The position numbers were made by a program, and so were the translations under genes. The notes beneath the pieces were generated by a model, which was not told the DNA's origin, did not search any database, and was given only the letters and a program-made list of their open reading frames with translations. From a virus, in IMG/VR virus record IMGVR_UViG_3300034418_011173, positions 1-22,548 of that record: a stretch of DNA of 22,548 bases. One strand, 5' to 3'. Below, piece after piece: positions 1,529 through 20,722 of the stretch (positions within the stretch are counted from its first letter, which is position 1; every line of letters starts with the position of its first letter).

Positions 1529-4500
1529 TTACTTGAATACATTTTGTAAAAATATTGCAGGCGCAGTATTACTAGTTGCTAAAGTTTTACCTTCTTCATA
1601 CCAAAGCATGCCTTTTTTACGAATTACAAGTATTTTTACATTTTCAGGAGGTGTATTTTCTAAACGTAAAGTATTACTGTTTACTACAGTAAATTCTGCC
1701 GAAACTTCCTCGTCACCTTCGGGTGAATCTTTTGCGATAGAGTCTACTATATTACCTTCATTATCGGTGTATTCAAATCTATATTTGTCTATTGCATTTT
1801 TGCGTAATCTAGTACCTGCAACAAAAACTTCAAACTCTGTTTCGTCTGTTGGTGTAAAATCTAACTCATATTCATTTGAAGTACCATCAGCTGTAAACAT
1901 TGTAGTAGTTATTTCGTCTTTGTAAGGTATTGTATGCTCTGCATTAATATACAGTACTTGTTGATTCTTGCTATGCAAGACAGGTGTACCTGTTCCTAAA
2001 GTACCACGCCGCAACTGTGATAATACATTGCCATCTCTTACAAAATATTCTATACGTTCGCCATCAATCCAAATCACACCAGGTTTATCGTTAACACCTG
2101 GTGTAGGTAATAAATCTGCAGATTTTAACACAAGTTTTTTATCATACCAATTTAAATCATCTGCTAGCATGTATTTTTGACTTTCGGTAATAGCAGAAAA
2201 TGTTGTTCTATTTAAAATGTCTTTAAATTGTTGCCAACTAAATTGTTGCTGTCTAGGTCCAGCTGCAAAATGTATTACTAAAAACTCGTCATCTACATCA
2301 ACGCTTGTTAACAAATTAACAAATGTTTTTGTAGAATCCAACAAGTAATCTACGTTAGGAGTTAAGAACTGATTATTTTTTGCAATCCAAACGTATTGAG
2401 CATCATACGCTTCTACAGAAAGTTGTATTTTTTTATTCCAAATATTTGCTAATTTTTTATACTCTTTACTATTTACAGGAATTCCTGTTGTTGACTTTAC
2501 TGTAATTCTATTTCGTAATATCCCTTGATGAACAAAATTATCAAATGAATATATTTTTATTACATCATTTTCTGCATATACATTACTAAATGTAACTGTA
2601 GTATTATCAACTTCAAAAACATCACCATTGAAATTACCAAATTGATATTCAGCATTGTGACGTAAATATACCTTTAATTGCTCTCCTGCTATAACAGTAA
2701 AGACTGTTTCGTTAATAGTAATTTTTCCTTCTTCTGGTATCCAAGTAAATTCTTCATTGTAGATTAATTCTTTATCTTCAACAAAAACTTCTAATTGATA
2801 GCCAGGAACATTACCTAAGTCAATTTGCTGATTATCTAAACTATACTCATACACATTATTTTGTAATGTAAATTCTTCATAGTAGCCCGGATCTAATACT
2901 TGATCATTCACTGTAACAACCGTATTCCACTCTGCTAAATCAATACCATCACTATTTGACGTTATCGGATATGATATCGAGTTACCGTCAGCTATAAAAG
3001 TTTCTACATTTATTTGACTATAATTTATAGTTTCGCTAGGACTAAAAATACTGTATTGAATAGTAGCATCTTCTATGATTGGTTCAGCAAAATTAATAAT
3101 TGTAAAATCTTTACCGTCATTTAATATTTGATGGTCAGCTGCTATTCCGTTAATAGATACAATACTTTGTAAATTTTCTACATATGGCACATCTGTGATA
3201 ATGTTAATTGTACTACCATCGCTTATAAATGTTTCAGATGCTAAAATATCTGATCCACCAGGGGTAAAATTACTAATATGAATAATTTCACCTGTAGAAG
3301 GTGCTGTGTTAAATTCTACAGTAGAATTAATAAAACTAACAGAATAATCATCACTATCTACTATATTGCCATTGTTTCGTACAATTATTTGATTTGTTGT
3401 AAATAGATTTCCATTAATTGCAAATTCTGTTGTAATATTATCGCCGTAATGAATGTCAGACGATATAACACTAGATCCGTTATTTGTTTTTTGCTGTACA
3501 ATAATATTTAATGTATCTAAAACTTGTCCTGGTACATGTTCTTCTACACTACCACTTGTAGTTGGCGTAACAAAATTATCGCCGTCTATAGTAATATCGT
3601 TAGCAAGAATACCTTGCGCATTTCCATACGATAGCTCACCGCCTGATATTTTTGTATCTAAACTATCAGGCATCGGAGCAAACGTACCATCACTTGAGGT
3701 TTTTCTAATTATAAGTGTATCGCCTTGACTCACTTTTATTTCTGCAAAATTAGAAGCATTTGGCATTCTAAATTCGTCTAAGTAGAGTGTCTGCGTAACT
3801 CCGTCGCCAACTAGAGATTCCATTATTGCATTAGGATTATCTACAACAGTTGATCCATCATAATTAGTATCATCTAATCTTACATTATTAAGATATACGT
3901 TATACACTACGCCATTTTCTAATGGTTTTGATAAAGTTATCTCTGTTGTAGATCCGTCAAAGTTAAAAATCTCATCTTCGTTTGTGTTTACATATGCATC
4001 CCATGCACTATTAAACCAAACATCGTTGTCCCATCCTTTTATATTGTCAAATTCTAATCCTTTAACTTCTACACCACCGTAATCTACTCCCAACATTAAC
4101 TGCGATAGTTCTTTACCTTTTCCATCTGTTATAGGCGTATATACTTTTCCTATTCTATCAGCAGCATTAAGCATATCAATGTTTTTGTTGTATTCTACTC
4201 TAACGTCAACATTAGAATCTATAGGAGTAGTAGTAGTAATTTGGCCTAAAAGTCTTGTATAACCTTTACTAGTATCTTCTACGTTTTCATACGAGTATTC
4301 GCTTGATAGTAGTTCTATATTATCAGCAAATACTTTAATGTTCGTTAGTGTTAAATCCATAGGCCAATTTAGATCATACACTAAATTAGATCCGCTAGCT
4401 ACAAAATTTTCTACAACAGATAATTGTGTAACAACGTAGTTACTTGAAGTTCTATCAAATTTTATTTTGCTTTTAAGTGATCTTACTTTACTATTGCCTA

Positions 4501-7500
4501 TTTCAATACTAATTTTTGCAGGATATCCTTCATCTGTTAAGTTTGAAATTAATTGCACATCAGGCACAGACAAATATCCACTGCCTGGATTTATAATTTC
4601 ACATTTTTTTAGTTTACCATTTGTGCCTATATAAGTTTTAATTTCTGCACCAGACCCTGTTTCACTAAACAAATTAACTACCGGAGGTGTTCTATAACCA
4701 GATCCAGGATCTACAATTTTTACAGATATTACTTCAAAACTACAATTGTCTATCCAATTTTTGTTAGGATATGCCGATACAAAACGATTATCTACTTCTA
4801 CAGAGTTATTAACAAATTTTGTTTTTGGAACTACAATTGCATTAGTTTCTTCGTCATATACTACGCCTAAATCAAAATCACTTATCATTGATCTAGCTTT
4901 TTCTAATCTATCATAGTTACTTACATATTCTCTAATTTTACTTTTGTAAGGTTTTACTTCTTCTATATATTCTTCATAACTTGGAAGATTATCATTATTA
5001 AAAGTAATGTCTTTACGTAAACTACCTACGTTATGTTTTGCTTTTATAAAGCTAGTTTTAAATAACCAATCAACATTATTTTGTTCACTTAAAATATATC
5101 TTATACTCGCAAAGAACAATTTATTAAATTGATTTAAAAGATCATTTACAAAAATATTGTTTTTAATTGCATACAGAATAATTCTTAATTCGAAAATAGG
5201 AATAAAGTCATATAATTTGATATCAAAACTATTACTGTCATAACCAAACGGTAACGGTCTAAACAATCTATCTGATAGTTGTATTGTACCGTTTTGTCGT
5301 CCTATAGTTTCATAATCTAAAGTATAATCTAAACTATTTGTTGTGTCTACTCTTTTAAGTAACAACCAGCCGCCACTACCAACATTTTGTATTTTAACTG
5401 TTTGGCCAAATCCTATATTAGCTGTATATAGTTCGTGGGTATTTTTTATTATGTGATTAATTTCTACATTTGAATTCAATCCTTCAGCATACCAATCAGC
5501 ATAATCCCAATATAAAGTAGTATCATATTTTTGTGTTACTATTCTACTCCATTCATTAACAACTGTATCTCTTTCGTATATACTCCATTTGTTACTTACT
5601 TTTATATCGTTGTTAACTAATACTCTATATCCTCGTACAACAGCAATAGTGTCTTTATTATAATTTTCGCCTGGCTCTTCAATTACTACTGATGTAACTT
5701 TGCCAATGCTATCTATTGTTGTACTTAATACTGCGCCAAAGCCTTGACCTGCTACTGTAATTGTAGGTGCTCTTTTATAACCTCTTCCTTGATCAACAAT
5801 AGTTGTTCTTACAATTTTACCATTTTCGATAGACAAGGAAATCCTAGCACGTTTTAGTTTATCTGTTTTAATATCTGCTAAATCATCATATATGTCTACT
5901 ATTTGGTCGTATTCATTTGTATCAACTGTAGGAGCAGGATCTTTATCCAATAAAGGTGATAGATCTTTGTTATCTACAATTAAATTATCCTTCAAAACAT
6001 AATTTATTCTTTCTACAACTTGTTTTAACGCTTCATTTCTATTTACAAACCATGACTGCCTGGGGGTAAACAAATTACCATACTTATATTTGTTAGGTAT
6101 TGCAGGATCAGGCACCGGTCTTTGATAGTCATCATACCCGATTAAACTGTCAAACCATTTTAATATTACGTCGTCATTAGGTTGACTTGTTTCTAGATTT
6201 TCTGTTGTAATTTCATATTGAATGTGTGTTTTATTATTTTCACCGCCAGTATTGTACGTTTGCACACTTAAGACTATATCGTCACTTGTTAAATATTGTT
6301 GGACATTATTAAGTAAAAATGTGTTTCCATTTATAAATGAAACAAATTCTATACCAGCACTTACTGGATTAGAAATAATTTTTTCTATATCTGTGATGTT
6401 TAAATTTCTACCTTCTAGATTTGGTACTGTTGAGCTACGGCGTACCCAGAAATAATATCTTGCAACAAAACTTCTACTTACAGGATCATATTTCTGCTTA
6501 GTTACATAGGCGTTGTTTCCATATTTAGAAATACCACTAGCAATTCTTCTTTCAGATACTGCAACATCATGATCTAACGGTAGGAGAGTACTTTCGATCC
6601 ACTCATAAACTGTTACAGTACTATCAGGAAGTAATTTATTCCAAGTTTGTGCATTATATACTAAATCGTTTTGATATGAATTATAAAACGATGTTTCTTT
6701 TATATCCCACCAAACTTTACCAACGTGCTCAGGTCCCCATGGTATACCTGTATCAAAAATGATATCTTTGTCTTGTTTTTTAAGAGCAGCAATTATTTTG
6801 ACATTATAAACTGCTGGATCATCAGGTGTTTTAAAACTAATTTCCTGTTCTGCAATACCTGCAATTTTTCCTTGCTGCGGATCTATATAATCTAGATATT
6901 TTATTATACTATTTGTTCTAGTATTGTATAAGAATACTTTTTTAATTTTATTTACATCAACTGTATCCTGTAATGATCTTTTCATAGACCACATTGAATT
7001 ATTAATAGGATCAGTTAGTTTAAAGTTGTAAATTTCTCCTACACTATTGTTTTCGTCTTCATCTACAACTTTTACAGCATTTGAGAAATATATGTTATTT
7101 TTCTTTAACACCATGCGTTTTCCAAAATCAGGAATTACATTATCTGTAGCCATTAATTTTTGAGATAATAAAAACTCTCCGTCTAAATTATCATATACAT
7201 AGACTATGCCTTGATTTAAATTAGCATATGCAAAATTTGTAAATCCTAAATCAAACGTTGTTGAATTATTATCATATGTTGTATCAATTATAGAATCTGC
7301 ATTCTTGGCATACACTGCTAATCTTTCACCATCGAAGTCAATTTCAGTTGCAAACTGCTCATTTTTTAGATAATTTGCATTTTCTAATGTATCTATTAAT
7401 TCAAAAATACCATTTATTTGCTTATATATTAATACTCTACCTTCATTTGCCCTAACTGTATCATTGAGAGGCTCATTTACTGCAATAAACATACCATTAC

Positions 7501-10500
7501 CACTGATCGCAACCTTAGTCGCGAAACCAGAAACAGTACTATCAACTATATTAGTAGAATCATCACCAGTGCCAATAGTTTGACTTAATTGATATAAGCC
7601 ATCTATATTTCTATAAACTACTACAGCAGAAGGTTTGTCTAAATAAGTTACACGAGCTACTAAAACTTCGCCATTGTCACTAACATCAAAACTAGAACCA
7701 AATGTTTCTAGTAATTCTTGATTAAGAATTGTGCTATAATCTACACTGTCGTTAATAACAACTGTGCCTGTATTGTTAGGTATAAAACCTACATAATCTA
7801 TAAATTCAGAATTCTCTATCCAGTCGTTTATATCAAACGGTTTTGGCACTAAGTTTGTTTTTGCTGTGTATAATGACCCATTAGGATCATCTAGATATAT
7901 TACATCTCCAGTTCTGTAGTTTAATGTTTCGTCAAATGCACCTTTATATTTTTTAAACTTAGAAAATTCCCAATTATAAGTTTCTGAATCTGCACTACCA
8001 TTATTTACAAAATATATTTTTCCCGGTAATATTGTGTCTTCATTTCCTTTTGCACCTACAAATGCTTTATACAAATCATTGTTTCTTCTTATTTTTACAT
8101 TCGAACCTAAATGTCTGTTTGATTGTCTGTCAGTAACTGTGTAATGTCCTAGTAGTTCAAATCCTTGACCTAGTATTTTGTAAACTGAATACATGCCTTC
8201 ATTAATAAAATCGCTTGCTGTTCCATTTACGTCTGCTGGAATATTAAAAACTTCTTGCCAAAAGTTGTTAACTACTGACGGCGCTTCATTTATTATAGGA
8301 CTACCTGTAATTTCTCTATCTGTGTAAACCCAATATTCTGCTCCTATTAATTCATTTTGCCCGGTGTAAGGTATTTCAAAAACACCAACTGTAAAACTTA
8401 CTGTGTTTTCAAATATTAAAAGTTTTCCAATGTTTAACGTATCTTGTCCGAGACTTACAGAGTTTACTACACCTATTTCTCGATCAATTTGATATACAGG
8501 ACTAGGATCATCCGGTATTGCTAAAAATTCTATTGCAGCAGAGTCGGCAAAGTTTGCACCTTTACTCCACAACCCTGTTGTATTTTTTACAAATAATTTT
8601 ACATTAATACCGTTGCGCTCTACAAACTTTACAATTGCTGTTGCATTTGTATTTTTATCTCTTATGGTCTGTCCTATTTTAGGCTGATATGGCTCTCCAA
8701 GTACTGTAAACTTGGTAAATTCTATGTTAATATACCCGTCCCAAATGTCAACAATTTTATGTGCTTTGTTAAATTGAGATAGTGATAATCCTATTTCTGC
8801 TGTACTATTAGTAACCCCGTTTGTGTAATTAGGAAGTTGATTTGCAAATAAATTAACTTCATCATTAATAGAAACTGTATCAGAAAAATCTTTAGGTACT
8901 CTTACTGCAAATCTAGTATCTAAAATTTCTCCGTTCTCATCGTCGGCGTTAGGGAAACCTTCATTACTAAACACTTTTACATATGAATTTAGATTATTTT
9001 CGCTATCAACACTTGTATTATTATAATCATAAATGTTATAATATAAGTTGCTGCTAGTTGAATCATCGCTAATATCTACATACACCAACCCTCTGCCTTC
9101 GTCAGTAAAAGTAGATGATGTATTAACTGTGTAAGTTGGTGTTTCAATATACCAAAAACCACCATATGCATCCGAAACACTGTCTAGTTGCTTCTCAAAG
9201 TCGCCAATAAATTCACCTGTTTGTGAGAAAAACAGTGATCCTGCAGAATTAAATGTTCCTACAACGTTTCCTAAGTACACAATATATTTGTCTTCGTCAT
9301 TAGAAGCAACATATTCCACTGTACCTGATCCAGTAGCTGATTGAACCAAATCGCCTTCTTGCGGCGCATTAGTTATACTAACAAAATATAAAGTTACATC
9401 AACTGATTTTCTTATTACGTGTTGAGAATTAAAAAATGTGTCATCAATACCTGCATATTCGTTATTAAACGGCACGGTTGATACTAAAGGATCTTGGTCT
9501 TGATACGCTTTTGATATAGTATTCCAATTAAACTTTACTTGATACTCTTCAGCACTTCTAGTATTGTCATAAAGCAGTTTCGGAGCTCGTACTAAAATGT
9601 GATTGACTGGATCAGTAAACGCTATTCTATCTGTATTAGTTCTAAGTGCATAATTGCCCACTATAAAAATAGGAATAGATGCTTGACTGTTGTCATCTAG
9701 CGGAATAATATTATTAGCTACAGTATCAAACGTATTAAAGGAATTTCCATCTAATGCAGGCACTAAGCTAAATTGTGCCTGCCATAATCTATCTTTGTAG
9801 TTTACAATATCATCTCGACTATAAGTTGCGCTAGTAGAAAAATTATCTTTATATTTTGTTTTTACATTAGATGCAGTAGGTGAACCTATTATTATATAAG
9901 GTCCAAAAGTATCTACACTACTACCGAATTGCATATTATTTGCAATATTTGTGTCAGGCTCTATAACATCATTAATTACCCAATTAGAGGATAAACTTTT
10001 TCTACTATAAACCCAAACCTTTCCGTCTCCGTTGCCGGGATCGCCTACTGCTAAAAGATTATTATTATTATTTGCTGCTAAACTATATCCGTACGTACCA
10101 CTGTAAGGAGTTTCTGTAAATTTAGGTCCTTGAAACTTTTCAAACAATTCAAACTGGTTATTATTATCTAACACAACCCAATTTTTGTCATTGCCATAAT
10201 TGTCTAACCAAACACTAATATTATCTTCGAATGTTTTTTGAAGTGCATTATTAGCATCAGAAACAGAAGTAAACCTAGTTTTTACTAATTTTGTAATAGA
10301 CGCTTTAATATCATTGCCTATAGGCAATTCTTGGGTAAACTTAATTTCTAAACTATCGTTGTCTTTTTTGGTTACCTGGCCGAAATAATTCACACTAGGA
10401 TCATGTTGAGTATTAGTTAATGTTACAGAGCTATCTGCTAATACTTCGCCTTCGGTCTTGCCAGTTATATAAACATTATTAATACCAATAATATCTCCAA

Positions 10501-13500
10501 CTTCTATATCAGTTACCGGTTGTTTAAAAGTAATCTGTGTAGAATAAAAACTAGTTGTTTCTGCATCGAATTTTTCAAGACCTAATTCTGATATAACTTG
10601 CTCAACAGGAGCTCCAGTACGATCAGTTTCTAAAAATCCTCTATTATTTTCTTCGTCTATTCTTCTTTGAATTCTAAAATATCTTTCAAATTCTGCATCG
10701 AAATCTTCTCTACTTATTACTCCGGCTAACAATTCTGTATTTAAACCTACATTCTGTGTAGTAACTTTTGTAAAAATATTAAAATCAATACTCTTTATTT
10801 GTAGGTCAGCTTCTGTATGTCTATACACACCCCAATCTTCATTATCTTTACCAAATATCCATAAGTATTCATTTTTCCCTAAAACGTTTGTTGGATTACC
10901 TATAATTTCTTCTAACTTGTATAGTTGCTGTTTCACATCATCTTTATGAACGTAACCTGAATCGTTTACAAAGCTTGTAAGTTGGGTTTTTGCAGGGAAC
11001 GGTGCTGTATCGTCTTTAGTCGGTAAATAAACCTCATAATTAGGAATAGTATAAGTGGTATTATCTATTGGGTCACTGTCAGAAATTTGTATAAGTTGTG
11101 GATTTACTACAAATTTAGATTCATCTAATTTTACTTCAAATTCATCAAATGTATCAGAATTTCCGTAAAGACCATCTCTAATTGCCCATTCTTCGTAAAA
11201 TTCTAAACTGTCTTTTTCATCGCTTGCTAACGCATCAAATAATTTAGAAAAAGCGTTAGGAGTACCTTTTTCTAGTATCATCCCTTGATAAAATTTATAC
11301 TGACTTACATCATCATTTATTATATTTTCTAAATATTCTCGTTTTTGATAACCGATTAAATGTTGTGCAAATTTTTGTTGATCTGTGTCAAAATTATCAC
11401 TGTCTAAATCGTAAAAATCTGCAAATTGATTTACCTTATATTCAAAGTTAGGATAAAGCCCTTGTCTCGGTTTTTCTTGTAATTCTGTCCAATAACTTGC
11501 ATCAAAAAATTCTAAACCTGGCACTTCTGTATTTGCTACATAAAAGCTTTGGTCGTAATTAACTAAATCGCCAATTTGATATGATTGATTAGCATCCCAT
11601 TGAGTATATGTCGAATCTTGATAGAAAAATCCAGGTATATTAGCACTACCGTTCCACTCATCAGTTCTGTAGCCTATAATTTTTATACGTTCTTGCCTAT
11701 AACCTGGTATAGTATCGTATATAGTATCATTAAACACTGTTTGGTTGTTTAACACAACTACGTGTTCTTTTTGTATTAGCGGTAACTCTAAATGATATAT
11801 ACCTTGGCCGGTTTCTTCATCATTAATGTATAAGAAAAAGTTATTATCATTACGGCCCAAAGACGACGCATCAGATATTAACGCTTCACTGTTAGCATTT
11901 AACAATGTATAATCGTTAGGACCATTATTAATATCTCCTACAACAGAATATTCACTTTTTAATTCTAGATAATTTGCACTAGGACTTAAAGATATTACAC
12001 TACCTTCGTCTAATCTAAATAATGTCCAGAACAAAAATTCTCTAACAGAGTGTACCCAATCATATACTACATTTTCGGTATCTTTGTAATATTCAAATAC
12101 AAAACCTTTAGATTGTAAATATTCGCTATATCCAAGTAAGAAATCTACAACATCTTGCTCTTTTAACAATAATGTACCATAAGGGATTTCAGTTACTGAT
12201 TGCTTAAAACCTTTTCTAATAATTGCATTTTTACCGCCTACAATTGGCAATTTAGGCAATTTTTCAAAAAATTCTGTTTTAAATTCTAAATCTCTATTAG
12301 CTACTTTACATCTATAAAAAGTGTTATTATTCTTTACAACAGTACCAACAGTGTAATACTGCCCACTTTTCCACAGTACATACGGTTCACTTACTCCGCC
12401 TACATTTATTGCATAATCTGCACTAGATTCATAGTGCGGTATAATATTAAAATAACCTTTAGACTTACTATAGCCTTTAATCAAAAACCCCTCTTCTTTT
12501 CTTTCAATAATTACAGCACTATAAGTTAATAAATCAACTGGCGTACTTTCGTTATAAATTATTTCGTAATCTTCATCTGGTACAAATACATTCCCTTTAT
12601 TAAGCGGAGTTCGACTATCTAGTATAAGTTTAAGTTTACTTTTTTCTGTAAATCCAGCAAATTTAAATCCAACTTGATTAGTAATACTTACTAAATCACT
12701 CTTATATTTTGAATAAGTCTCTGGAATCATTTTATTATAATTAGCAATATAATTCACAATTCCACTTGTAAAGTTGTAAACATCATCGATGTTATTAGGT
12801 GGAAAAATAATATCTTCTAATTTAAATCTAGAACCTGTTGGTTTATAAACAATATTGCCCGCAACATCTCTAACTTGGTTATTTCGGTCATATGCAGTTG
12901 CGAAAAATTCATTTGGCTTGTTTAAACCGTAAGCTATTAACAATGAGAATGCAAATTCACTACTTCTGCGCCACGCTGCTTCAACTGGTGCTCCGTCACC
13001 AAACACAAAAGGTTTTTCAATTTCAACAAAATCATAATAACCTAAAAGTCCTATTTCTATAGGACTAATTAAATCACCGTGTTCGTCAACTGGCAGAATA
13101 TCTAACAGTCCAGGACGTTTGTATTCGTTTAGATATATAGGCCTAGTATTGGGTTGTCTAACTATACCTTTTTCTATATCTTCCCATAATAAAAAATTAT
13201 CTTTTGTATACGGAGCTTCGCCATAAGTGTCTTGCCACCATTTAGGTTCTATTGTGAAGCCTAACATTTCCCAAGGTGCAATATTTGGTCTATCGGTATC
13301 ATAATAATACTTGTAAATTTCTCGCCAATATCCAGGTAATTTTTCGTATTTTAGATCTGTACTATTACTAAAATTGTATGTAAAACTATTATCTCTTGCA
13401 AAAAAATCATGAGAATGATAATCATTACTTACAAGTGCTGACCATTCTAAAAACTCTGCAACAAATGCTTTATTCAAAACAGATTTTTTAATAGAGTTTG

Positions 13501-16500
13501 ATCTAAAATATCCAGGAAGAATTTTGTTTATATCAAAAACTTTTGAATCATATTGAACTTTTACATTATTAAATATTCTTTTTTCTAATTCTAATAGTAA
13601 ATCGTCTCTATAATCGTCATAAGCTTTTATCAAAGACCCGTCGTGGCCTTGTATCATGTAAACTGGTGTTTGCAGTGTAGTGTCTAGATATTTTTTTGGT
13701 TCGTATAAAGGGTAAAGCCCTAGTTTACTAGGAGTAGGCGGTACATAACTTGCATTTGTATTTTCATACTCGTATATAGTAATAATATCTTGAGGATTTT
13801 TATCCGCAGTAACAACTGCATATCCTTCTGTATTAAATGTATAATCTTTACCGTGAACTAATTGCATATCGTTTAGATAAACATAAACAGCTTTAGCCGA
13901 CATTTCATCTAAAGTAAAATTATCTGCTAAAGGAAAATATATTTCATCACTGTCTTCAATTTCATGTTCTGTTTGTATATTACCACTATATGCAATCATA
14001 TCACTAAAATAAAACGGATTAGAATTATTTTTATTTCTCGCAAATTCTTCTAAAATTTTATCAACGTGAATTTTTGTCTCGCCACTAAAACCTAAAGTTT
14101 CGCTTATGTTTATAAATTCCCTTTTAAATTTTGCATATTCATTTTTTGCAAATCTTATAGATTTTACAAAATTAGCATTATCATCAGTTATATGATACAG
14201 TGATAAATTTAAAGGTACACTATGTTGTAAGAATCTTCTACCATTTTTATCAATATTTGATAAATCTCTAAGATTTCCAACACCAGGATACAAACCTATA
14301 AAATCTTTAGTATTTTCTACAATACTAAACACGTGGTCGTTAACTTCACCGAGTGTAAATGTATCTAAATTTTTATTTCCCGGATTTCGTTCTAAAGAAT
14401 AAGGAAATTCATACTTACCGTTTTGATTTTTAGGCAAGCTACTTTGTGTTTTAATTACAAGAACATCACCTTCCTTTAGGTCTTGTACAAAATTTATTTT
14501 TGCATATTTAGACGGATCTTCAACGATTGAATAATCGGTGTCTTTTATTAACAAATTATTGTTTTTAAAAATAACAGTGTTTATTTCATCTATAAAGTCA
14601 GAACTATTCTCATATACATCTAAGTATACGTTTACAAATGTATTGTCGTATACAACTTGCCTTACAACTGGTTGTTTATAATCAGTTACTTTTTTCCATT
14701 GTGTTTCGACCGAATATTCTGTTCTATTTTTATATCGATATATATAACCTTTATTTGTATTTTGATCTTGAACATTGTCGTCAATTACGTAAGAAAACGT
14801 ATCTTGACCATAATTAGATTCAAAAACAATATCGCCTACATTATTAATATTTTGGTAACTTAAAGGAAAACCTAACTCGCTATCGTTTACACCTGTGCCA
14901 GTTTTATATGATAAGATTTTGTTTCCAATAAAAGTACTTGACGGATATTCAACTTCGTCACTAAAACTATTTCCATTGCTATCAAAAAGGTCAAATAACG
15001 GAGATTGATTCACTGTTGTTTTTCGTTGGCTTACAGTCCAATTATTATTACTGTAAGATAAAACTTTTCCTGCGTATTCTAAGCCTCTGCGCACTGCTAC
15101 AGTTTCATTTTCTAATGGGTCTGTATCATCTGTCTCAACTAAAGTTATTTGTCTTACATTTGACACTACTGCATCATTTTCAAGTGTCCCGTCGTATGTA
15201 ATAAATTTAACTTGATATATTTTATTTGTTACTAAGGGGTCAGTGTCTGCTAAAAACAAAACACGCATGCCGTCTGCTAATTCTACATTATCAACATTAT
15301 AGCCTATACTACCTTCGATAGTCGAAAAAACATCCTTAGTAAAATCGTCAATTAAATCAATATTTTCTTTAGCTTTAGTGCCGTAATTATACAATTTTAA
15401 ATTAGGGTCAAATTCTATAATAGGTCTACTTGCTCTAAAATTTTGATCTAATTCTAAATCACTATTTGTAAGTTTTGCTGATAGTTCTATTATTTCTCTA
15501 TGGAACCATCTATTGTGCCTAGACCATAAATTGCCGTTCATTGCTGATCGATTTATTGTGAAATAATCTTTTTCTAAAGGATAGCCTAATGCTTTGTCAA
15601 AAGGTAAAGAGTCAAACTCAATATTATCAAATTCAATGTCTACTTCTTTTGTATATTCAGACGGCACTAATAAATGATTTTCTTCAACTAACTTTATTGC
15701 TTCGCCTACGCCTTCAACATAAAAAGTTTTATTTTGATAAAATTCTGGTTCTACTTGACCTATAAATTTAATTTTCATGCCGTTAGAAAATGCAACTCCG
15801 TTACCCGAAGTATAATTTTTCTTTTGTAAAACTTCAGACTCTACATCAATAAATGCTGCTTCTTCTATGTTTTTAACTTGTATTCTTCCATGTATGTTTA
15901 TATCTTCTGTAGAAACATACCAAAGATCATCAGGGGCAGATTGACTTAGTTCTAATGTAACTGTGCCTTGTTCTAATCCCTGTATGTCAACTCCCTCGTA
16001 TAGAAGTATTGTACTACTGTCAAGATCAAATTCAGATTGATCTGTTAATTTTGTCCTAAACACTATAGGAAAATTAGGTACATCAACATCGAATCTATAC
16101 TTTACTCCTCTATAAAGAGTTAAAGTAGGATTAGGAGTAAGCCCGTCAGGAGTAAAAATATAACTGTAAGAGTCTAAATTATCACTTAATCTTACAGTAT
16201 ATGTGCTATCTACTTCTACACTATTACCTGCAATACTTATAGCCTGTGGACCATTTGGCAACCAATAATATTCTCTAAAGTTAGAAAACTTATCCCAGTC
16301 AATATGTGGGTTCCATGCATAAAATTCTTGTGCAGTTAATTCACTATAGTCTTCAGTTGCACTGTTAAAGTTTGATAAAGCGTTTGTATAATCGTTAAAA
16401 TCTTTATAAAAAACTGTATCATCTAAATTATTTTTAATTACAGCAGCAGGTTCAAACTTGTAATTGTTTCTTTGTGGTGTTACATCATTAACATAAGTAT

Positions 16501-16711
16501 CAGACGACACATAAGCTTTTGCATCTCTTCTTCCTACATAACCGTTTACCCTATCAATTAAACCAGGTGATATTAATCTATCTAAGGTTGCATGTAAAAA
16601 TTTATTGTTTTTTGGTGTCCTATAGATCTTAGGTAAATGATCAGAACTTGTTCTCTTAGATGATCCATTTACTGGAAGATTAGGTTCATTTTGAAAATTA
16701 TCGTAAGCCAT
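1529..16711 (-). CDS. Giant modular virion structural protein (5060 aa) in the gp7/gp8 position
   Basis: An uninterrupted 5060-codon frame starts three bases after the gp6 stop. A GGAGG lies 12 bases before its ATG, inside the end of gp6, which suggests translational coupling. In T4, gp6 is followed by gp7 (1032 aa) and gp8, so this is probably a baseplate wedge or tail-tip protein. The N-terminus (1-160, with FREYYWLPNGP near its end) looks like the start of large structural proteins in marine T4-like phages. Modules seen by eye: paired GM modules (about 294-353, 464-524); carbohydrate-binding-like modules (about 1441-1481, 1698-1748, 2288-2331, 2918-2968); a split seven-bladed FG-GAP-like propeller (about 2200-3240); GxGY repeat pairs (about 3625-3691, 3991-4058); DG-type beta modules (about 4098-5033); and IDGERIEYF/LRRGTLGT (about 4875-4900). 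I find only three cysteines and no membrane segment or protease motif. The reading frame is certain; the virion role is probable; homology to gp7 is not shown. Confidence 0.88.
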   Translation of the reverse strand: MAYDNFQNEPNLPVNGSSKRTSSDHLPKIYRTPKNNKFLHATLDRLISPGLIDRVNGYVGRRDAKAYVSSDTYVNDVTPQRNNYKFEPAAVIKNNLDDTVFYKDFNDYTNALSNFNSATEDYSELTAQEFYAWNPHIDWDKFSNFREYYWLPNGPQAISIAGNSVEVDSTYTVRLSDNLDSYSYIFTPDGLTPNPTLTLYRGVKYRFDVDVPNFPIVFRTKLTDQSEFDLDSSTILLYEGVDIQGLEQGTVTLELSQSAPDDLWYVSTEDINIHGRIQVKNIEEAAFIDVESEVLQKKNYTSGNGVAFSNGMKIKFIGQVEPEFYQNKTFYVEGVGEAIKLVEENHLLVPSEYTKEVDIEFDNIEFDSLPFDKALGYPLEKDYFTINRSAMNGNLWSRHNRWFHREIIELSAKLTNSDLELDQNFRASRPIIEFDPNLKLYNYGTKAKENIDLIDDFTKDVFSTIEGSIGYNVDNVELADGMRVLFLADTDPLVTNKIYQVKFITYDGTLENDAVVSNVRQITLVETDDTDPLENETVAVRRGLEYAGKVLSYSNNNWTVSQRKTTVNQSPLFDLFDSNGNSFSDEVEYPSSTFIGNKILSYKTGTGVNDSELGFPLSYQNINNVGDIVFESNYGQDTFSYVIDDNVQDQNTNKGYIYRYKNRTEYSVETQWKKVTDYKQPVVRQVVYDNTFVNVYLDVYENSSDFIDEINTVIFKNNNLLIKDTDYSIVEDPSKYAKINFVQDLKEGDVLVIKTQSSLPKNQNGKYEFPYSLERNPGNKNLDTFTLGEVNDHVFSIVENTKDFIGLYPGVGNLRDLSNIDKNGRRFLQHSVPLNLSLYHITDDNANFVKSIRFAKNEYAKFKREFINISETLGFSGETKIHVDKILEEFARNKNNSNPFYFSDMIAYSGNIQTEHEIEDSDEIYFPLADNFTLDEMSAKAVYVYLNDMQLVHGKDYTFNTEGYAVVTADKNPQDIITIYEYENTNASYVPPTPSKLGLYPLYEPKKYLDTTLQTPVYMIQGHDGSLIKAYDDYRDDLLLELEKRIFNNVKVQYDSKVFDINKILPGYFRSNSIKKSVLNKAFVAEFLEWSALVSNDYHSHDFFARDNSFTYNFSNSTDLKYEKLPGYWREIYKYYYDTDRPNIAPWEMLGFTIEPKWWQDTYGEAPYTKDNFLLWEDIEKGIVRQPNTRPIYLNEYKRPGLLDILPVDEHGDLISPIEIGLLGYYDFVEIEKPFVFGDGAPVEAAWRRSSEFAFSLLIAYGLNKPNEFFATAYDRNNQVRDVAGNIVYKPTGSRFKLEDIIFPPNNIDDVYNFTSGIVNYIANYNKMIPETYSKYKSDLVSITNQVGFKFAGFTEKSKLKLILDSRTPLNKGNVFVPDEDYEIIYNESTPVDLLTYSAVIIERKEEGFLIKGYSKSKGYFNIIPHYESSADYAINVGGVSEPYVLWKSGQYYTVGTVVKNNNTFYRCKVANRDLEFKTEFFEKLPKLPIVGGKNAIIRKGFKQSVTEIPYGTLLLKEQDVVDFLLGYSEYLQSKGFVFEYYKDTENVVYDWVHSVREFLFWTLFRLDEGSVISLSPSANYLELKSEYSVVGDINNGPNDYTLLNANSEALISDASSLGRNDNNFFLYINDEETGQGIYHLELPLIQKEHVVVLNNQTVFNDTIYDTIPGYRQERIKIIGYRTDEWNGSANIPGFFYQDSTYTQWDANQSYQIGDLVNYDQSFYVANTEVPGLEFFDASYWTELQEKPRQGLYPNFEYKVNQFADFYDLDSDNFDTDQQKFAQHLIGYQKREYLENIINDDVSQYKFYQGMILEKGTPNAFSKLFDALASDEKDSLEFYEEWAIRDGLYGNSDTFDEFEVKLDESKFVVNPQLIQISDSDPIDNTTYTIPNYEVYLPTKDDTAPFPAKTQLTSFVNDSGYVHKDDVKQQLYKLEEIIGNPTNVLGKNEYLWIFGKDNEDWGVYRHTEADLQIKSIDFNIFTKVTTQNVGLNTELLAGVISREDFDAEFERYFRIQRRIDEENNRGFLETDRTGAPVEQVISELGLEKFDAETTSFYSTQITFKQPVTDIEVGDIIGINNVYITGKTEGEVLADSSVTLTNTQHDPSVNYFGQVTKKDNDSLEIKFTQELPIGNDIKASITKLVKTRFTSVSDANNALQKTFEDNISVWLDNYGNDKNWVVLDNNNQFELFEKFQGPKFTETPYSGTYGYSLAANNNNNLLAVGDPGNGDGKVWVYSRKSLSSNWVINDVIEPDTNIANNMQFGSSVDTFGPYIIIGSPTASNVKTKYKDNFSTSATYSRDDIVNYKDRLWQAQFSLVPALDGNSFNTFDTVANNIIPLDDNSQASIPIFIVGNYALRTNTDRIAFTDPVNHILVRAPKLLYDNTRSAEEYQVKFNWNTISKAYQDQDPLVSTVPFNNEYAGIDDTFFNSQHVIRKSVDVTLYFVSITNAPQEGDLVQSATGSGTVEYVASNDEDKYIVYLGNVVGTFNSAGSLFFSQTGEFIGDFEKQLDSVSDAYGGFWYIETPTYTVNTSSTFTDEGRGLVYVDISDDSTSSNLYYNIYDYNNTSVDSENNLNSYVKVFSNEGFPNADDENGEILDTRFAVRVPKDFSDTVSINDEVNLFANQLPNYTNGVTNSTAEIGLSLSQFNKAHKIVDIWDGYINIEFTKFTVLGEPYQPKIGQTIRDKNTNATAIVKFVERNGINVKLFVKNTTGLWSKGANFADSAAIEFLAIPDDPSPVYQIDREIGVVNSVSLGQDTLNIGKLLIFENTVSFTVGVFEIPYTGQNELIGAEYWVYTDREITGSPIINEAPSVVNNFWQEVFNIPADVNGTASDFINEGMYSVYKILGQGFELLGHYTVTDRQSNRHLGSNVKIRRNNDLYKAFVGAKGNEDTILPGKIYFVNNGSADSETYNWEFSKFKKYKGAFDETLNYRTGDVIYLDDPNGSLYTAKTNLVPKPFDINDWIENSEFIDYVGFIPNNTGTVVINDSVDYSTILNQELLETFGSSFDVSDNGEVLVARVTYLDKPSAVVVYRNIDGLYQLSQTIGTGDDSTNIVDSTVSGFATKVAISGNGMFIAVNEPLNDTVRANEGRVLIYKQINGIFELIDTLENANYLKNEQFATEIDFDGERLAVYAKNADSIIDTTYDNNSTTFDLGFTNFAYANLNQGIVYVYDNLDGEFLLSQKLMATDNVIPDFGKRMVLKKNNIYFSNAVKVVDEDENNSVGEIYNFKLTDPINNSMWSMKRSLQDTVDVNKIKKVFLYNTRTNSIIKYLDYIDPQQGKIAGIAEQEISFKTPDDPAVYNVKIIAALKKQDKDIIFDTGIPWGPEHVGKVWWDIKETSFYNSYQNDLVYNAQTWNKLLPDSTVTVYEWIESTLLPLDHDVAVSERRIASGISKYGNNAYVTKQKYDPVSRSFVARYYFWVRRSSTVPNLEGRNLNITDIEKIISNPVSAGIEFVSFINGNTFLLNNVQQYLTSDDIVLSVQTYNTGGENNKTHIQYEITTENLETSQPNDDVILKWFDSLIGYDDYQRPVPDPAIPNKYKYGNLFTPRQSWFVNRNEALKQVVERINYVLKDNLIVDNKDLSPLLDKDPAPTVDTNEYDQIVDIYDDLADIKTDKLKRARISLSIENGKIVRTTIVDQGRGYKRAPTITVAGQGFGAVLSTTIDSIGKVTSVVIEEPGENYNKDTIAVVRGYRVLVNNDIKVSNKWSIYERDTVVNEWSRIVTQKYDTTLYWDYADWYAEGLNSNVEINHIIKNTHELYTANIGFGQTVKIQNVGSGGWLLLKRVDTTNSLDYTLDYETIGRQNGTIQLSDRLFRPLPFGYDSNSFDIKLYDFIPIFELRIILYAIKNNIFVNDLLNQFNKLFFASIRYILSEQNNVDWLFKTSFIKAKHNVGSLRKDITFNNDNLPSYEEYIEEVKPYKSKIREYVSNYDRLEKARSMISDFDLGVVYDEETNAIVVPKTKFVNNSVEVDNRFVSAYPNKNWIDNCSFEVISVKIVDPGSGYRTPPVVNLFSETGSGAEIKTYIGTNGKLKKCEIINPGSGYLSVPDVQLISNLTDEGYPAKISIEIGNSKVRSLKSKIKFDRTSSNYVVTQLSVVENFVASGSNLVYDLNWPMDLTLTNIKVFADNIELLSSEYSYENVEDTSKGYTRLLGQITTTTPIDSNVDVRVEYNKNIDMLNAADRIGKVYTPITDGKGKELSQLMLGVDYGGVEVKGLEFDNIKGWDNDVWFNSAWDAYVNTNEDEIFNFDGSTTEITLSKPLENGVVYNVYLNNVRLDDTNYDGSTVVDNPNAIMESLVGDGVTQTLYLDEFRMPNASNFAEIKVSQGDTLIIRKTSSDGTFAPMPDSLDTKISGGELSYGNAQGILANDITIDGDNFVTPTTSGSVEEHVPGQVLDTLNIIVQQKTNNGSSVISSDIHYGDNITTEFAINGNLFTTNQIIVRNNGNIVDSDDYSVSFINSTVEFNTAPSTGEIIHISNFTPGGSDILASETFISDGSTINIITDVPYVENLQSIVSINGIAADHQILNDGKDFTIINFAEPIIEDATIQYSIFSPSETINYSQINVETFIADGNSISYPITSNSDGIDLAEWNTVVTVNDQVLDPGYYEEFTLQNNVYEYSLDNQQIDLGNVPGYQLEVFVEDKELIYNEEFTWIPEEGKITINETVFTVIAGEQLKVYLRHNAEYQFGNFNGDVFEVDNTTVTFSNVYAENDVIKIYSFDNFVHQGILRNRITVKSTTGIPVNSKEYKKLANIWNKKIQLSVEAYDAQYVWIAKNNQFLTPNVDYLLDSTKTFVNLLTSVDVDDEFLVIHFAAGPRQQQFSWQQFKDILNRTTFSAITESQKYMLADDLNWYDKKLVLKSADLLPTPGVNDKPGVIWIDGERIEYFVRDGNVLSQLRRGTLGTGTPVLHSKNQQVLYINAEHTIPYKDEITTTMFTADGTSNEYELDFTPTDETEFEVFVAGTRLRKNAIDKYRFEYTDNEGNIVDSIAKDSPEGDEEVSAEFTVVNSNTLRLENTPPENVKILVIRKKGMLWYEEGKTLATSNTAPAIFLQNVFK

Positions 16712-16713
16712 TA

Positions 16714-19700
16714 TTAATATGATCCTCCAGTATTATTAGACGAATTACTAGTAACTGATAAATTAGAACTTTGAATTCCTACATTTAATGAATTAGTAGA
16801 ACTAGTAATTGCTCCATTTGCTTGTATCTTTGTTGCTGTTATTTCGTCTATGATTTCTATATCGGTGATTTCAACTCCACTAATGAAAAGTTCATCAGCT
16901 TCTGCTTTTACTTCAAATAAACTTCCAAATACTGTGTTAACATTATTAGGAACAACAACAAAACTTACTAAATTTGGGCTTAATTCTTTCATCACATATG
17001 CAGTTAATTCACTAAAATAAAAAGTGTCGCCAAAATTCCAATTGTCTAAGGCAAAAAATTCTGTAATTGCTGTTAAACACTGTGATTTAATATCATTATC
17101 ATTTACTACTGATTCTGGATTTTTTACTATTTTAAAAGTTGCTTGCAATTCACTATCTGCCTTTGAACCAAAAATAATTTTATACTTTACAGGATTATAA
17201 ATAATCTCATCACTTACTGATTTTATGTCAACTAAATTTTTATTAAAATCTAAAAATAGTTGATCGCTGCTAGGCGGTAATGGTTTTTCACCTGCATTCC
17301 TTAAATATTTTCTAAATTGAATATCATATCCTTTTGTAAGCACAAAAACATCTATTAAATTACTAACACTAGGGTCTAATCTTTTATCTTGATCAGCCGA
17401 GTGTACATAATGAAATTTTAAGTCATCACGACCCGAAACTGCTATATAGTCTGCAAGAACAGACAAACTATTAGTTTCTTTATTTAATACCTCAAAATAA
17501 TTTTCTTTAATATAATAAAATATTTGTCCATCATCATATAAACTTGTAGTTGCTAAAGCACCTTTTTCTGACAAGGAAACAATTTCCCCATTAGTGTTAG
17601 GAAAATACAAGTACTGTTCACTACCGTCTGCATATTGTACTTTCTTTCTAAAGATAATTTTATTTTGACTATTAACTTCTTCATTTACAATAATATCAAA
17701 CAAGTCAGGATCATCTACTACACCGTCTTCGTCAGAATCAAAAAAGCTTACTTCCATTTTACTACTGTCAACATAGCCATCTCTATCACGATAACTAGCA
17801 ATTACTTCCCAATCATAATCAACAGTAAATGAATCTGTTGAATCAGGTTTACTGTTAATATTTAAAACTGAAATTTTGTCTTTAACTGTTTTTCCGCTTG
17901 ATCTATTAAAAACTTTATCAGAAGAATCATAATAAAATCTAATTTCATTAGGACTTTCAAACAGATACTGAATACCTCTATATGTAATTGTATACGTATC
18001 ACCTTTAGGTTCAAATAGCAGTAGCCAACTTCGATCAGCTTGTTGACTACTTGTGCTTCCAGTTTGTGATATACTAAAGTCATCAAAAATATTCAAATTA
18101 TCTAGCGTTATAACATCCCAGCGAGCAGTATTAATATCAAATCTCAATCCAAAAGTATTTTTAGCAAATACTTGATCAATTATTTGAGTTTGTGTATCAG
18201 TAAACAATTCAAATGATAGTCTCGGAATAATTTGATCTAAAATTGCTCCTGTAGGTATAATGTCAGTTAATTTAACCGGGCCACGACCGTCATCAGTCAA
18301 CTCGGTGCCATTTCCGTCTACACTATAAACTTTAGTCCAAATATAGTCAACAGAATCTAAATGATCTGCATTTCCGTCCATAAGAGCATTATTATTATTT
18401 TTCATAAAATGCTTACCTTCAGGAGCAACAAATTTTAATAAACAGTTTGGTGTAATATATTTTAAAGTAGTAGTAGTAAAGTCACCTATTATTTGTAACT
18501 GACCACCTAAATTATTAAAATATCCTGTGTTTTGATTTGTCTTATTTGTAACACTTGTCCAAAAATTATTAAAATCAGATACTTTTATTTTTGTAAACTC
18601 GCTATAGTAAAAATTACGTAGATTATAATTAGATAAGATAGGTGTAATAGTATTTGCTATTGCGCCTGCAATGTCAGCTCTAGTTTGCCAAGCAAATTTC
18701 TTTTTAAATTCTACTTTATTTTTTGTTAGAATACCATCATTACCATACAAGTTAGTTTTACTATATTTGCCTGTGCTATCTAATAAATCAAAATATCTAC
18801 TAATACCACTGCTGGTTCTATTAACACTTTTTACTTTTATAATATCAGAATTTCTAGCTAATGGCGCAAGTTGATAGTCTTCCGCCGTAATCATTCTATT
18901 TTGAGTATAGTAGTTTGCAGGAGCATTAATTTTGATACTTTCGTTAGACTCTGTACTAGCTCCATTGGTTAACTCGTAACTTAAATTACATATTATTTTA
19001 AGTGTTTCAGTTTTACCTGCATTACTTGTGTAAGGTATACTCATACTTACAATAGATATTTGATTAGGATCTACACTTGTTACGTCAGGAGAGCTTGTTC
19101 TATAATAGGCTCTAAATTTGCCTAATGGAATATTTCCAAAGGTACCATCACCAAATACTAAACTAATACGATCATCTATTCTAGTTAACACACTGAAAAT
19201 ATTTTTAGTATTTTTTTCCAAGTTGTTATAAATTACATTATTACCTTCAGTAGATGCAACCTTGGTCCATTCTTCTTTTTCAAAATCTTGAGCATCTAAA
19301 GAATAAAGCCAAACATCAGATTCGTTTACTTGTGTGTCATCAACCGCTACAACTTGATTACTATATCCTTCGTTGAGCTCAAAATCACCATTAACCATGT
19401 TACCTTGTCTAAAATGGAAAAAATAACCTGTATTTGAGCTTTGATTTCCTTTGCCGTCAGATCTATAAAGGAATGCAAATTTATTACCTAAAAAAGGAGC
19501 TTCTTCTATAATATTTCCATCTTCGATACCAGTACTAACTATTTCAAAATTTCTGTTTATACCGTTTATATTTCTAGTAAACGGTACGACTGGAATACCT
19601 TGATTTTCAGAATTAATTCTATATTGCTGTGTTACAATTCCATTAATTATTTCTTCTTGTATAGGATTGCCAATACCTGCACCACGAGGCAAAGCAGCAT

Positions 19701-20181
19701 TTAAAATACGAGTAAACTTACTATTCCAATTAGGATCTGTTGAATCATTAAATGTAATATTACCGCCATTTAAACTAAATCCATTTTCATCTTTTACTTC
19801 TTCAGAAGTTGATATTGAAACTATTTTTAACAATCCGTTTACTGGCTGTACACGTTTAGGTTGATAACTTAGAAGTCTAGCAAGACGTAACACACTTTCT
19901 CTGCGTTCTGCTGTTTCTAAGAAATTTTCTCTAGCATTTAAATCAGTTCTAAATGAAAAGTTTTGTCCTAAAAATGCTATTAAATCAATTAGAGCTACAT
20001 ACTCACTTGATTCAATATAATCATTAAAATCTTCTGGATAATTACGTCTTAAGTACGTAATCATTGTTCTACGTAAATTATCAAAATCGTAAGAAAGGAA
20101 TTCTGCATTTCTAAAACTTTGATATATGCGCTTCCAGTCTTCGGCTACTAACAATCTATTTTGTCTATCAGTATTTGACAT
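16714..20181 (-). CDS. 6: Baseplate wedge protein gp6, expanded (1155 aa)
   Basis: gp6 is the baseplate wedge protein that, as dimers, forms the ring around the hub in T4-like phages. The N-terminus is typical: a DFDNLRRTMITYLRRNYPEDF segment with surrounding residues (about 33-55), then ALIDLIAFLGQNFSFRTDLNAREN (about 63-87), then AERRESVLRLARLLSYQPKR. A baseplate-J-like core follows at about 427-465 (MITAEDYQLAPLARNSDI). The C-terminus has NWNFGDTFYFSELTAYV (about 1045-1062), a VVVPNN segment and an FGSLFEV/ELFISGVEI ending, all characteristic of gp6. T4 gp6 has 660 aa, so about 500 residues are extra, mostly between about 480 and 1000. This includes an acidic DSDEDGVVDDPD loop (about 814-826) of calcium-binding type. 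The start at 20181 is supported by AAAGG at 20189-20193, 7 bases upstream, and by a late promoter box. The stop lies three bases before the giant gene. Confidence 0.93.
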   Translation of the reverse strand: MSNTDRQNRLLVAEDWKRIYQSFRNAEFLSYDFDNLRRTMITYLRRNYPEDFNDYIESSEYVALIDLIAFLGQNFSFRTDLNARENFLETAERRESVLRLARLLSYQPKRVQPVNGLLKIVSISTSEEVKDENGFSLNGGNITFNDSTDPNWNSKFTRILNAALPRGAGIGNPIQEEIINGIVTQQYRINSENQGIPVVPFTRNINGINRNFEIVSTGIEDGNIIEEAPFLGNKFAFLYRSDGKGNQSSNTGYFFHFRQGNMVNGDFELNEGYSNQVVAVDDTQVNESDVWLYSLDAQDFEKEEWTKVASTEGNNVIYNNLEKNTKNIFSVLTRIDDRISLVFGDGTFGNIPLGKFRAYYRTSSPDVTSVDPNQISIVSMSIPYTSNAGKTETLKIICNLSYELTNGASTESNESIKINAPANYYTQNRMITAEDYQLAPLARNSDIIKVKSVNRTSSGISRYFDLLDSTGKYSKTNLYGNDGILTKNKVEFKKKFAWQTRADIAGAIANTITPILSNYNLRNFYYSEFTKIKVSDFNNFWTSVTNKTNQNTGYFNNLGGQLQIIGDFTTTTLKYITPNCLLKFVAPEGKHFMKNNNNALMDGNADHLDSVDYIWTKVYSVDGNGTELTDDGRGPVKLTDIIPTGAILDQIIPRLSFELFTDTQTQIIDQVFAKNTFGLRFDINTARWDVITLDNLNIFDDFSISQTGSTSSQQADRSWLLLFEPKGDTYTITYRGIQYLFESPNEIRFYYDSSDKVFNRSSGKTVKDKISVLNINSKPDSTDSFTVDYDWEVIASYRDRDGYVDSSKMEVSFFDSDEDGVVDDPDLFDIIVNEEVNSQNKIIFRKKVQYADGSEQYLYFPNTNGEIVSLSEKGALATTSLYDDGQIFYYIKENYFEVLNKETNSLSVLADYIAVSGRDDLKFHYVHSADQDKRLDPSVSNLIDVFVLTKGYDIQFRKYLRNAGEKPLPPSSDQLFLDFNKNLVDIKSVSDEIIYNPVKYKIIFGSKADSELQATFKIVKNPESVVNDNDIKSQCLTAITEFFALDNWNFGDTFYFSELTAYVMKELSPNLVSFVVVPNNVNTVFGSLFEVKAEADELFISGVEITDIEIIDEITATKIQANGAITSSTNSLNVGIQSSNLSVTSNSSNNTGGSY

Positions 20182-20199
20182 ATGAAAACCTTTGAAATA

Positions 20200-20219
20200 T
20201 TTTACATATTTATGTAAAA
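20200..20219. repeat. Perfect 20-bp inverted repeat over the gp6 promoter
   Basis: TTTTACATA and TATGTAAAA are perfect 9-base inverted arms separated by two bases. The palindrome contains the whole late promoter box (20207-20214) and ends 19 bases before the gp6 ATG. It could be a binding site for a dimeric regulator, a weak hairpin in the gp25 message, or chance in AT-rich DNA. The stem is nearly all A-T and has no following T-run, so it is not a good terminator. Confidence 0.6.
20207..20214 (-). promoter_or_regulatory. T4-type late promoter box, CATAAATA
   Basis: The minus strand reads CATAAATA in the 58-base gap between gp25 (stop at 20240) and gp6 (ATG at 20181). It fits the NATAAATA late-promoter form reported for T4-like cyanophages. 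The 25 bases between box and ATG include the AAAGG ribosome-binding sequence. It probably starts a late transcript carrying gp6 and the giant gene. Confidence 0.65.
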
Positions 20220-20239
20220 ATTAAGCACGTAGAAAACTT

Positions 20240-20722
20240 TTAGTAACTTCTTTGATCTGTATAATCCCTAGACGAAGGTATTAAATAACCTGCTCTATTA
20301 TCAAATCTCAATTGCAAGTATTCTGATATGTCATAAGCCAAATAAGTAATGTCGCATTGTATTTGCACGCCGTGGTCATAGGAATCAACTATAATTTTTT
20401 TTGCTGTTACCCTTGGATCAAAATTGATAATTTCTGTTACGTTTTCAGCAATTGCTTCTTTTAAAACTTCAGTTAATGGATCGAACAAAACATCCCAAAT
20501 TATACAGCCAAACTCTGGATCTGATAATTTTTCACCTTGTCTAATGTGAAAGTGATTTATTATGTCTTGACGTATACATTCTAAGTCATATATAGATACA
20601 CTTTTTCTAGATGGATTTGTTGTGCTAAATCCTCTATAGGTATTGCCTGGCAAGCCGTAACTTTGTTTTTTTGCTGTCGGTACAACAACTTCTTTGTATA
20701 TCTTTTTTTCTATACGAGACAT
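20240..20722 (-). CDS. 25: Baseplate wedge protein gp25
   Basis: gp25 is a small wedge protein with a lysozyme-like fold but no enzymatic role; it joins the gp6 ring to the inner baseplate and is related to sheath-initiating proteins of other contractile injection systems. The family signature is clear: IRQDIINHFHIRQGEKLSDPEFG with the GEKLSDPEFG core at about residues 62-71, then IIWDVLFDPLTEVL and a conserved IINFDPRVTAKKI stretch (about 95-107). The length is 160 aa against 132 in T4; the extra residues form a basic N-terminal arm (about 1-40). The ATG overlaps the gp5 stop by one base (TAATG), with AGAGG nine bases upstream, so translation is probably coupled to gp5. Confidence 0.94.
   Translation of the reverse strand: MSRIEKKIYKEVVVPTAKKQSYGLPGNTYRGFSTTNPSRKSVSIYDLECIRQDIINHFHIRQGEKLSDPEFGCIIWDVLFDPLTEVLKEAIAENVTEIINFDPRVTAKKIIVDSYDHGVQIQCDITYLAYDISEYLQLRFDNRAGYLIPSSRDYTDQRSY

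Follow-up and report, generated by a model that had tools for sequence, protein, structure and literature searches.

A 5060-residue protein in the gp7 slot of a T4/RaK2-like baseplate operon, probably equivalent to the third scaffold subunit of the wedge

In phage T4, gp7 is a six-copy monomer of the baseplate wedge, assembled with gp10, gp8 and gp6 (PMC3004832). A homologous scaffold is found in phage XM1, where (gp16)2-gp17 corresponds to (gp6)2-gp7; domain I of XM1 gp17 consists of residues 1–79 and 107–133, and the short insert between them (80–106) is buried in the tail-spike density (PMC10457771). T4 gp7 comprises 1032 residues with a KG motif at residue ~738, while P2 gpI, XM1 gp17 and the Tail_P2_I family follow a gp6 homologue in the same manner and measure about 180–240 residues. 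In marine T4-like phages T4 gp7 has been described as absent, with 'VrlC' in its stead (PMC7029224). Cyanophages P-SSM2 and S-SSM7 possess annotated gp7 genes of 15,588 bp (5195 aa) and 9,024 bp (3007 aa), respectively, both in the same slot; their products match T4 gp7 with E-values of 8.4e-5 and 2.6e-8, and at the KG motif with an hhalign P of 1.4e-9. S-SSM7 has two distinct ~9-kb genes annotated as gp7, and a small gene separates them.

Giant proteins of 3,000–5,600 residues are common in the gp7 slot of marine and jumbo phages, yet they are annotated just as 'virion structural protein'. Phage AP-J-162, a relative of Atu_ph07, encodes a 4455-aa structural protein straight after a 1198-aa wedge protein (PMC11242549). 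Mass spectrometry of CBB virions detected CBB_236, a direct homologue of the protein described below (PMC5259590). In phage phAPEC6, gp245 (381.9 kDa, 17 unique peptides) is listed right after the baseplate wedge protein gp244 and, judging by position and size, is probably the same protein (PMC7247149).

The stretch of DNA analysed here (the window) is a 22,548-base IMG/VR virus record, the phage of which is known here from metagenome contigs only. It contains the following genes:

20240..20722, minus strand: gp25, baseplate wedge protein/sheath initiator, 160 aa (PF04965, above cut-off)
16714..20181, minus strand: gp6, baseplate wedge subunit, 1155 aa (phrog_10646, E 3e-281; phrog_219)
1529..16711, minus strand: giant baseplate-wedge protein gene of the PHROG 10938 family, 5060 aa
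880..1494, minus strand: conserved protein of about 200 residues (204 aa) directly downstream of the giant gene (phrog_11259, E 7e-67, a family without function)

In reading order, a 591-aa ORF (20722–22497) is followed by gp25, gp6, the giant gene, the gene of the 204-aa protein and a cut gene; the start codon of the giant gene lies 2 bases past the gp6 stop. The gp25–gp6–giant order parallels P2 W-J-I and T4 6-7, and in all 77 relatives with enough sequence (IMG/VR loci) the gene immediately ahead of the giant, in the same orientation, is gp6. The first-pass annotation had placed the giant in the gp7/gp8 slot of a T4-like baseplate operon, without naming its strand, which is minus. The operon and the position after gp6 are borne out by the PHROG and Pfam identification of gp6 and gp25 upstream on the same strand; the gp8 part found no counterpart, as the T4 gp8 model PF09215 gave no match in the window at E ≤ 10.

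The giant ORF has an ATG start, a TAA stop and no internal stops over 15.2 kb, with codon-position GC even along its full length, and an ORF so long cannot be of chance origin. The calculated mass of the product is 574.9 kDa (pI 4.55, three cysteines only), so the previous estimate of 560–570 kDa was right about its very large size and slightly low. Unusual length alone would speak for an assembly artefact joining several genes. Two other IMG/VR contigs cover window positions 3400–21774 (99.8%) and 11732–22548 (99.4%) gap-free, which backs residues 1 to ~4437 by at least one further contig and refutes such joining for this part; because both contigs are free of indels over these stretches, the length of the gene is not an artefact. 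Together with 21 other long IMG/VR contigs bearing unbroken frames of 4458–5624 aa, this makes the artefact practically negligible as an explanation, and the unbroken 5060-aa frame stands as originally reported. The same frames in metagenomic relatives make 5060 residues an ordinary size. The rarity that the first description had implied does not hold, given hundreds of relatives and the larger P-SSM2 gp7 in the same slot.

The window giant is a further member of an already known, widespread family. Both halves of the protein match PHROG 10938 (E 6.9e-252 and 1.8e-75), with the profile match spanning most conserved blocks; the PHROGs category of this family is 'head and packaging', though its genomic context is tail/baseplate. 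A tblastn search with the giant retrieved ~60 isolate phages, nearly all of them jumbo, megablast against phages gave no match, and relatives of its first 1300 residues occur in 307 IMG/VR stretches. An IMG/VR scan with residues 2901–3599, by a pattern method of limited reach, returned a near-identical contig only. Isolate homologues measured 3,138–4,555 aa. The giant directly follows gp6 in Cassandra (3857 aa), Atu_ph07 (4449), RaK2 (3326), CBB (3340), Vibrio 2.275.O (3771) and Phosso (4555), and in XacN1 it follows a wedge gene. In SCTP-2 the giant (3807 aa) lies ~90 kb from gp6, which is on the other strand; among the phages examined, the gp6–giant synteny is broken there only, and a second huge gene (gene 141, 9291 bp) immediately precedes this giant. 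In one 61%-identical relative (L015, position 19204) the frame stops after 3068 aa near the contig end; beyond the stop the similarity is found in a different frame, and the likely cause is a frameshift or an error of assembly.

RaK2-like and other jumbo proteins of PHROG 10938 are homologous to the window protein over much of residues ~1–1975 and ~3230–3960, at ~23–32% identity, and the window protein is longer. The parts of the giant protein are as follows:

15857..16213, minus strand: cupredoxin-like beta domain, residues 167–285 (AF2 model, VIA-align Z up to 10.4)
12722..13729, minus strand: confidently predicted helical domain kept in jumbo relatives, residues 995–1330 (alignment; AF2 pLDDT about 80–95)
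12242..12379, minus strand: CBM5/12-like (chitin-binding type) insert, residues ~1445–1490 (VIA-align)
11534..11602, minus strand: CBM_5_12 insert, residues 1704–1726 (Pfam E 6.6e-10, above cut-off)
11102..11509, minus strand: candidate gp7/gpI (trifurcation) core element, residues 1735–1870 (conservation and hhalign)
7022..10864, minus strand: length-variable arm, residues ~1950–3230 (flanking anchors; coverage dip at 1901–3100)
9866..9943, minus strand: FG-GAP repeat, residues 2257–2282 (PF14312, E 1.1e-5, 26.0 bits against a cut-off of 23)
4832..7024, minus strand: second block conserved with jumbo phages, residues 3230–3960 (sequence alignment)
4535..4735, minus strand: G-x-G-Y repeat module, residues 3993–4059 (phrog_460, E 2e-14)
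1532..4414, minus strand: C-terminal part, residues ~4100–5060 (weak Phage_T7_tail match, E 0.0098)

The two CBM5/12-like inserts sit in a beta region of the giant. Residues ~1445–1490 superimpose on CBM5/12 structures (VIA-align Z ~6–6.6, rmsd 1.1–2.0 Å over 41–45 residues) with a marginal sequence match, and a PDB sequence search with the giant likewise gave chitin-binding modules only, at marginal E-values; the second insert (1704–1726) falls in an alignment gap in jumbo isolate relatives and is extra in comparison with RaK2. The arm between the anchors, in which the FG-GAP repeat lies, measures 83 residues in RaK2, 115 in CBB, 323 in Cassandra, 413 in SCTP-2, ~1250 in the window giant and 1525 in Atu_ph07. 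The G-x-G-Y module also occurs in cyanophage baseplate proteins, for example the S-H9-2 'baseplate wedge component'. A repeat HMM built on the giant's own internal modules is circular and supports no repeat claim; the C-terminal modules are thus described as repeat-like, a property not statistically established.

The first-pass annotation proposed a gp7-like N-terminus, to be sought in the first 1000–1500 residues, fused to a long receptor-exploring arm. Comparison with a seven-member T4 gp7 alignment gave hhalign probabilities below 1% in every window up to residue 1600, and single T4 gp7 produced no usable match to residues 1–1190 or 995–1990. An AlphaFold (AF2) model of residues 1–1190 (54 sequences, mean pLDDT 75), compared with the PDB by Foldseek and VIA-align, matched mainly multicopper oxidases and cupredoxins, with no gp7 chain listed. 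VIA-align maps this similarity to the Greek-key beta fold of residues 167–285, which superimposes on cupredoxins with an rmsd of 2.1–2.8 Å over ~100 residues. No column of this domain has more than 30% His, Cys or Met; with no copper ligand kept, it is best regarded as a cupredoxin-like structural module. A phage baseplate protein thus carries a cupredoxin-like domain with all copper ligands lost.

A gp7-type signature was found further along the chain, at residues ~1735–1870. Conservation of the aligned giant peaks at residues 1751–1850, where mean identity to the window reaches 75% and 68%; in DNA comparisons by blastn with L014 and L015, two relatives at 61% identity, no other part of the gene can still be aligned. 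This region contains FYQGMILEKGTPNAFSKLFDAL, and its KGT motif lies near residue 1815. In the alignment of the P2 gpI family a KG(T) motif with a helix after it is a typical feature, and T4 gp7 carries FYSTKGIEASYKFLFKVLY. In hhalign comparisons, residues ~1735–1870 matched P2 gpI with P 0.0036–0.0047 (other windows P at least 0.11, reversed profile at least 0.16; 0 of 250 column permutations) and the cyanophage gp7 N-terminus with P 0.0023–0.0027 (55 columns at P 0.0023; non-overlapping windows at least 0.064). Against a combined T4 and cyanophage gp7 profile, residues 1700–1849 reached P 8e-4 and a probability of 24% (non-overlapping windows at least 0.16; 0 of 200 permutations for residues 1735–1870). 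A jumbo-only profile of seven isolates singled out the same stretch (P 0.003 and 0.006), and the matches are in register on KG(T) across the reference profiles. Homology of residues ~1735–1870 to the gp7 core is, on this profile evidence, weakly supported: the matches are short (13–55 columns) with hhalign probabilities of at most 24% and ~24 windows tried, and a probable kinship among the reference families means that their support is not independent. P2 gpI and cyanophage gp7 show no significant match to each other.

Scans of the window with PF09684 (Tail_P2_I), TIGR02242 and PF21428 (Gp7_helical) gave no match at E ≤ 10, and neither did an NCBIfam scan give any; the giant resembles T4 gp7 weakly at the KG motif, and the Pfam helical domain of T4 gp7 was not detected in it. 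Fold searches with the models of residues 1–1190 and 995–1990 listed no gp7 chain; the helical core is poorly modelled in them (pLDDT about 35–55 at ~1735–1870), and a gp7 fold may yet be present there. Such poor prediction as a monomer could fit a helix that forms in an obligate complex. A BFVD search returned mainly giant-family members and CBM-bearing phage proteins, and a Mu gp48 search close relatives only. Cyanophage giant gp7s resemble the window giant in the gp25–gp6–gp7 slot, similar size, G-x-G-Y-type modules and KG(T) motif; however, no end-to-end homology was detected, and their motif is at about residue 200. Searches of eight complete jumbo genomes turned up neither a further T4-type gp7 nor, at E ≤ 1, a Tail_P2_I protein. 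An N-terminal LPxxYR motif, a candidate for the half of the gp7 core that is missing, looked plausible by eye and was rejected as not significant by profile.

We consider it likely that the giant corresponds to gp7 and serves as the third scaffold subunit in the baseplate wedge of a T4/RaK2-like contractile phage. This reading is favoured by the gp25–gp6–giant order with gp6 invariably upstream in the 77 loci, by the PHROG 10938 match combined with the presence of the homologue CBB_236 in virions (PMC5259590), by the recognisable T4 gp7 KG motif of the same-slot P-SSM2 and S-SSM7 giants, by the coincidence of the KG(T) matches with the most conserved stretch, by the lack of a separate gp7 or Tail_P2_I protein in the eight jumbo genomes, and by the precedent of XM1 gp17, whose domain I is split by a short insert (PMC10457771). 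The view of the giant as a very large virion structural protein agrees with the relatives seen in virions, directly for CBB_236 (PMC5259590) and, for phAPEC6 gp245, as judged from its position and size (PMC7247149). The assignment is weakened by the short, low-probability core match obtained with ~24 windows and related references, by the silence of the Tail_P2_I, TIGR02242 and Gp7_helical models and of the fold searches, by the low pLDDT of residues ~1735–1870, by the lack of a significant match between P2 gpI and cyanophage gp7, and by the SCTP-2 giant encoded ~90 kb from gp6.

The use of 'VrlC' for gp7 could also mean replacement instead of homology (PMC7029224), and the most serious competing explanation, to which we give perhaps one chance in a handful, is that gp7 was replaced by an unrelated baseplate protein, the giant, whose KGT likeness is convergent or fortuitous. 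The weak, short profile matches, the lack of any Pfam-level gp7 or Tail_P2_I match and the reported absence and substitution of T4 gp7 in marine relatives (PMC7029224) would all fit this; yet with each of three reference profiles, and again with the jumbo-only profile, the top score falls on the same residues, always in register; these residues also form the conservation peak, and the gene occupies the gp7/gpI slot. Far less probable is a tail fibre or adhesin merely encoded in the wedge operon, with carbohydrate-binding-like modules touching the host surface: CBM5/12 matches, an FG-GAP repeat, variable arms and similar small modules in the Milano and 7-7-1 receptor-binding/tail-fibre structures suggest such a role, whereas the most conserved regions are internal and distinct from the binding modules, the linkage to gp6 is strict, and residues 995–1330 form a compact conserved helical domain. 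The original version, a gp7-like N-terminus followed by an exploring arm, appears equally improbable; it shares the slot after gp6 and accommodates the large remainder with carbohydrate-binding-like modules, but profile comparison gives no gp7 signal in residues 1–1500 and the N-terminal model returns cupredoxin-like matches only. These results bear on the N-terminus; a receptor-exploring arm as such is conceivable.

If the giant is indeed the gp7 equivalent, analogy with T4 gp7, XM1 gp17 and P2 gpI suggests one copy per wedge and six per tail, adding about 3.4 MDa by simple arithmetic. The short conserved helical element at ~1735–1870 would pair the giant with the gp6 dimer, its KGT element sitting in the gp6 trifurcation. 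The outer baseplate may be formed by the other ~4,900 residues. A single chain, enlarged by insertions and a variable C-terminus, could then do the work of T4 peripheral proteins such as gp8–gp11, as a platform for fibres, in surface contact and in relaying the contraction trigger. The number of copies, the pairing with gp6 and what the arms do are all drawn from analogy with these systems. We further speculate, tentatively, that the universal gp7/gpI core is split, with an N-terminal helix (~22–55) bundling with gp6 and the KGT element, ~1,750 residues further on, closing the trifurcation; on that view the outer baseplate as a whole would consist of segments inserted into or added onto one wedge chain, in place of the separate peripheral proteins of T4. 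Profile comparison did not detect the N-terminal half (~22–55).

The giant protein and its slot were already known from PHROG 10938, P-SSM2 gp7 and the 'VrlC' remark (PMC7029224). What is new is a weak but repeated sign, at the sequence level, of a gp7 core located roughly one third into the chain. Among the papers searched, none was found to assign the RaK2-type giant to gp7, an assignment that we infer here with moderate confidence. It would give a function, that of a wedge scaffold, to one of the largest phage protein families, and would show a wedge component of ~180 residues growing nearly thirty-fold with a small conserved core kept.

The genes flanking the operon show further features. 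Genes of about 200 codons occupy the place corresponding to 880–1494 in Cassandra, Phosso, SCTP-2 and Vibrio 2.275.O. At the opposite end, the 591-aa ORF upstream of gp25 gave no Pfam or PHROG match and is open to the window edge, where it is possibly cut; its GC content climbs to 40%, against ~31% elsewhere, and it looks like the C-terminus of a spike/hub protein.
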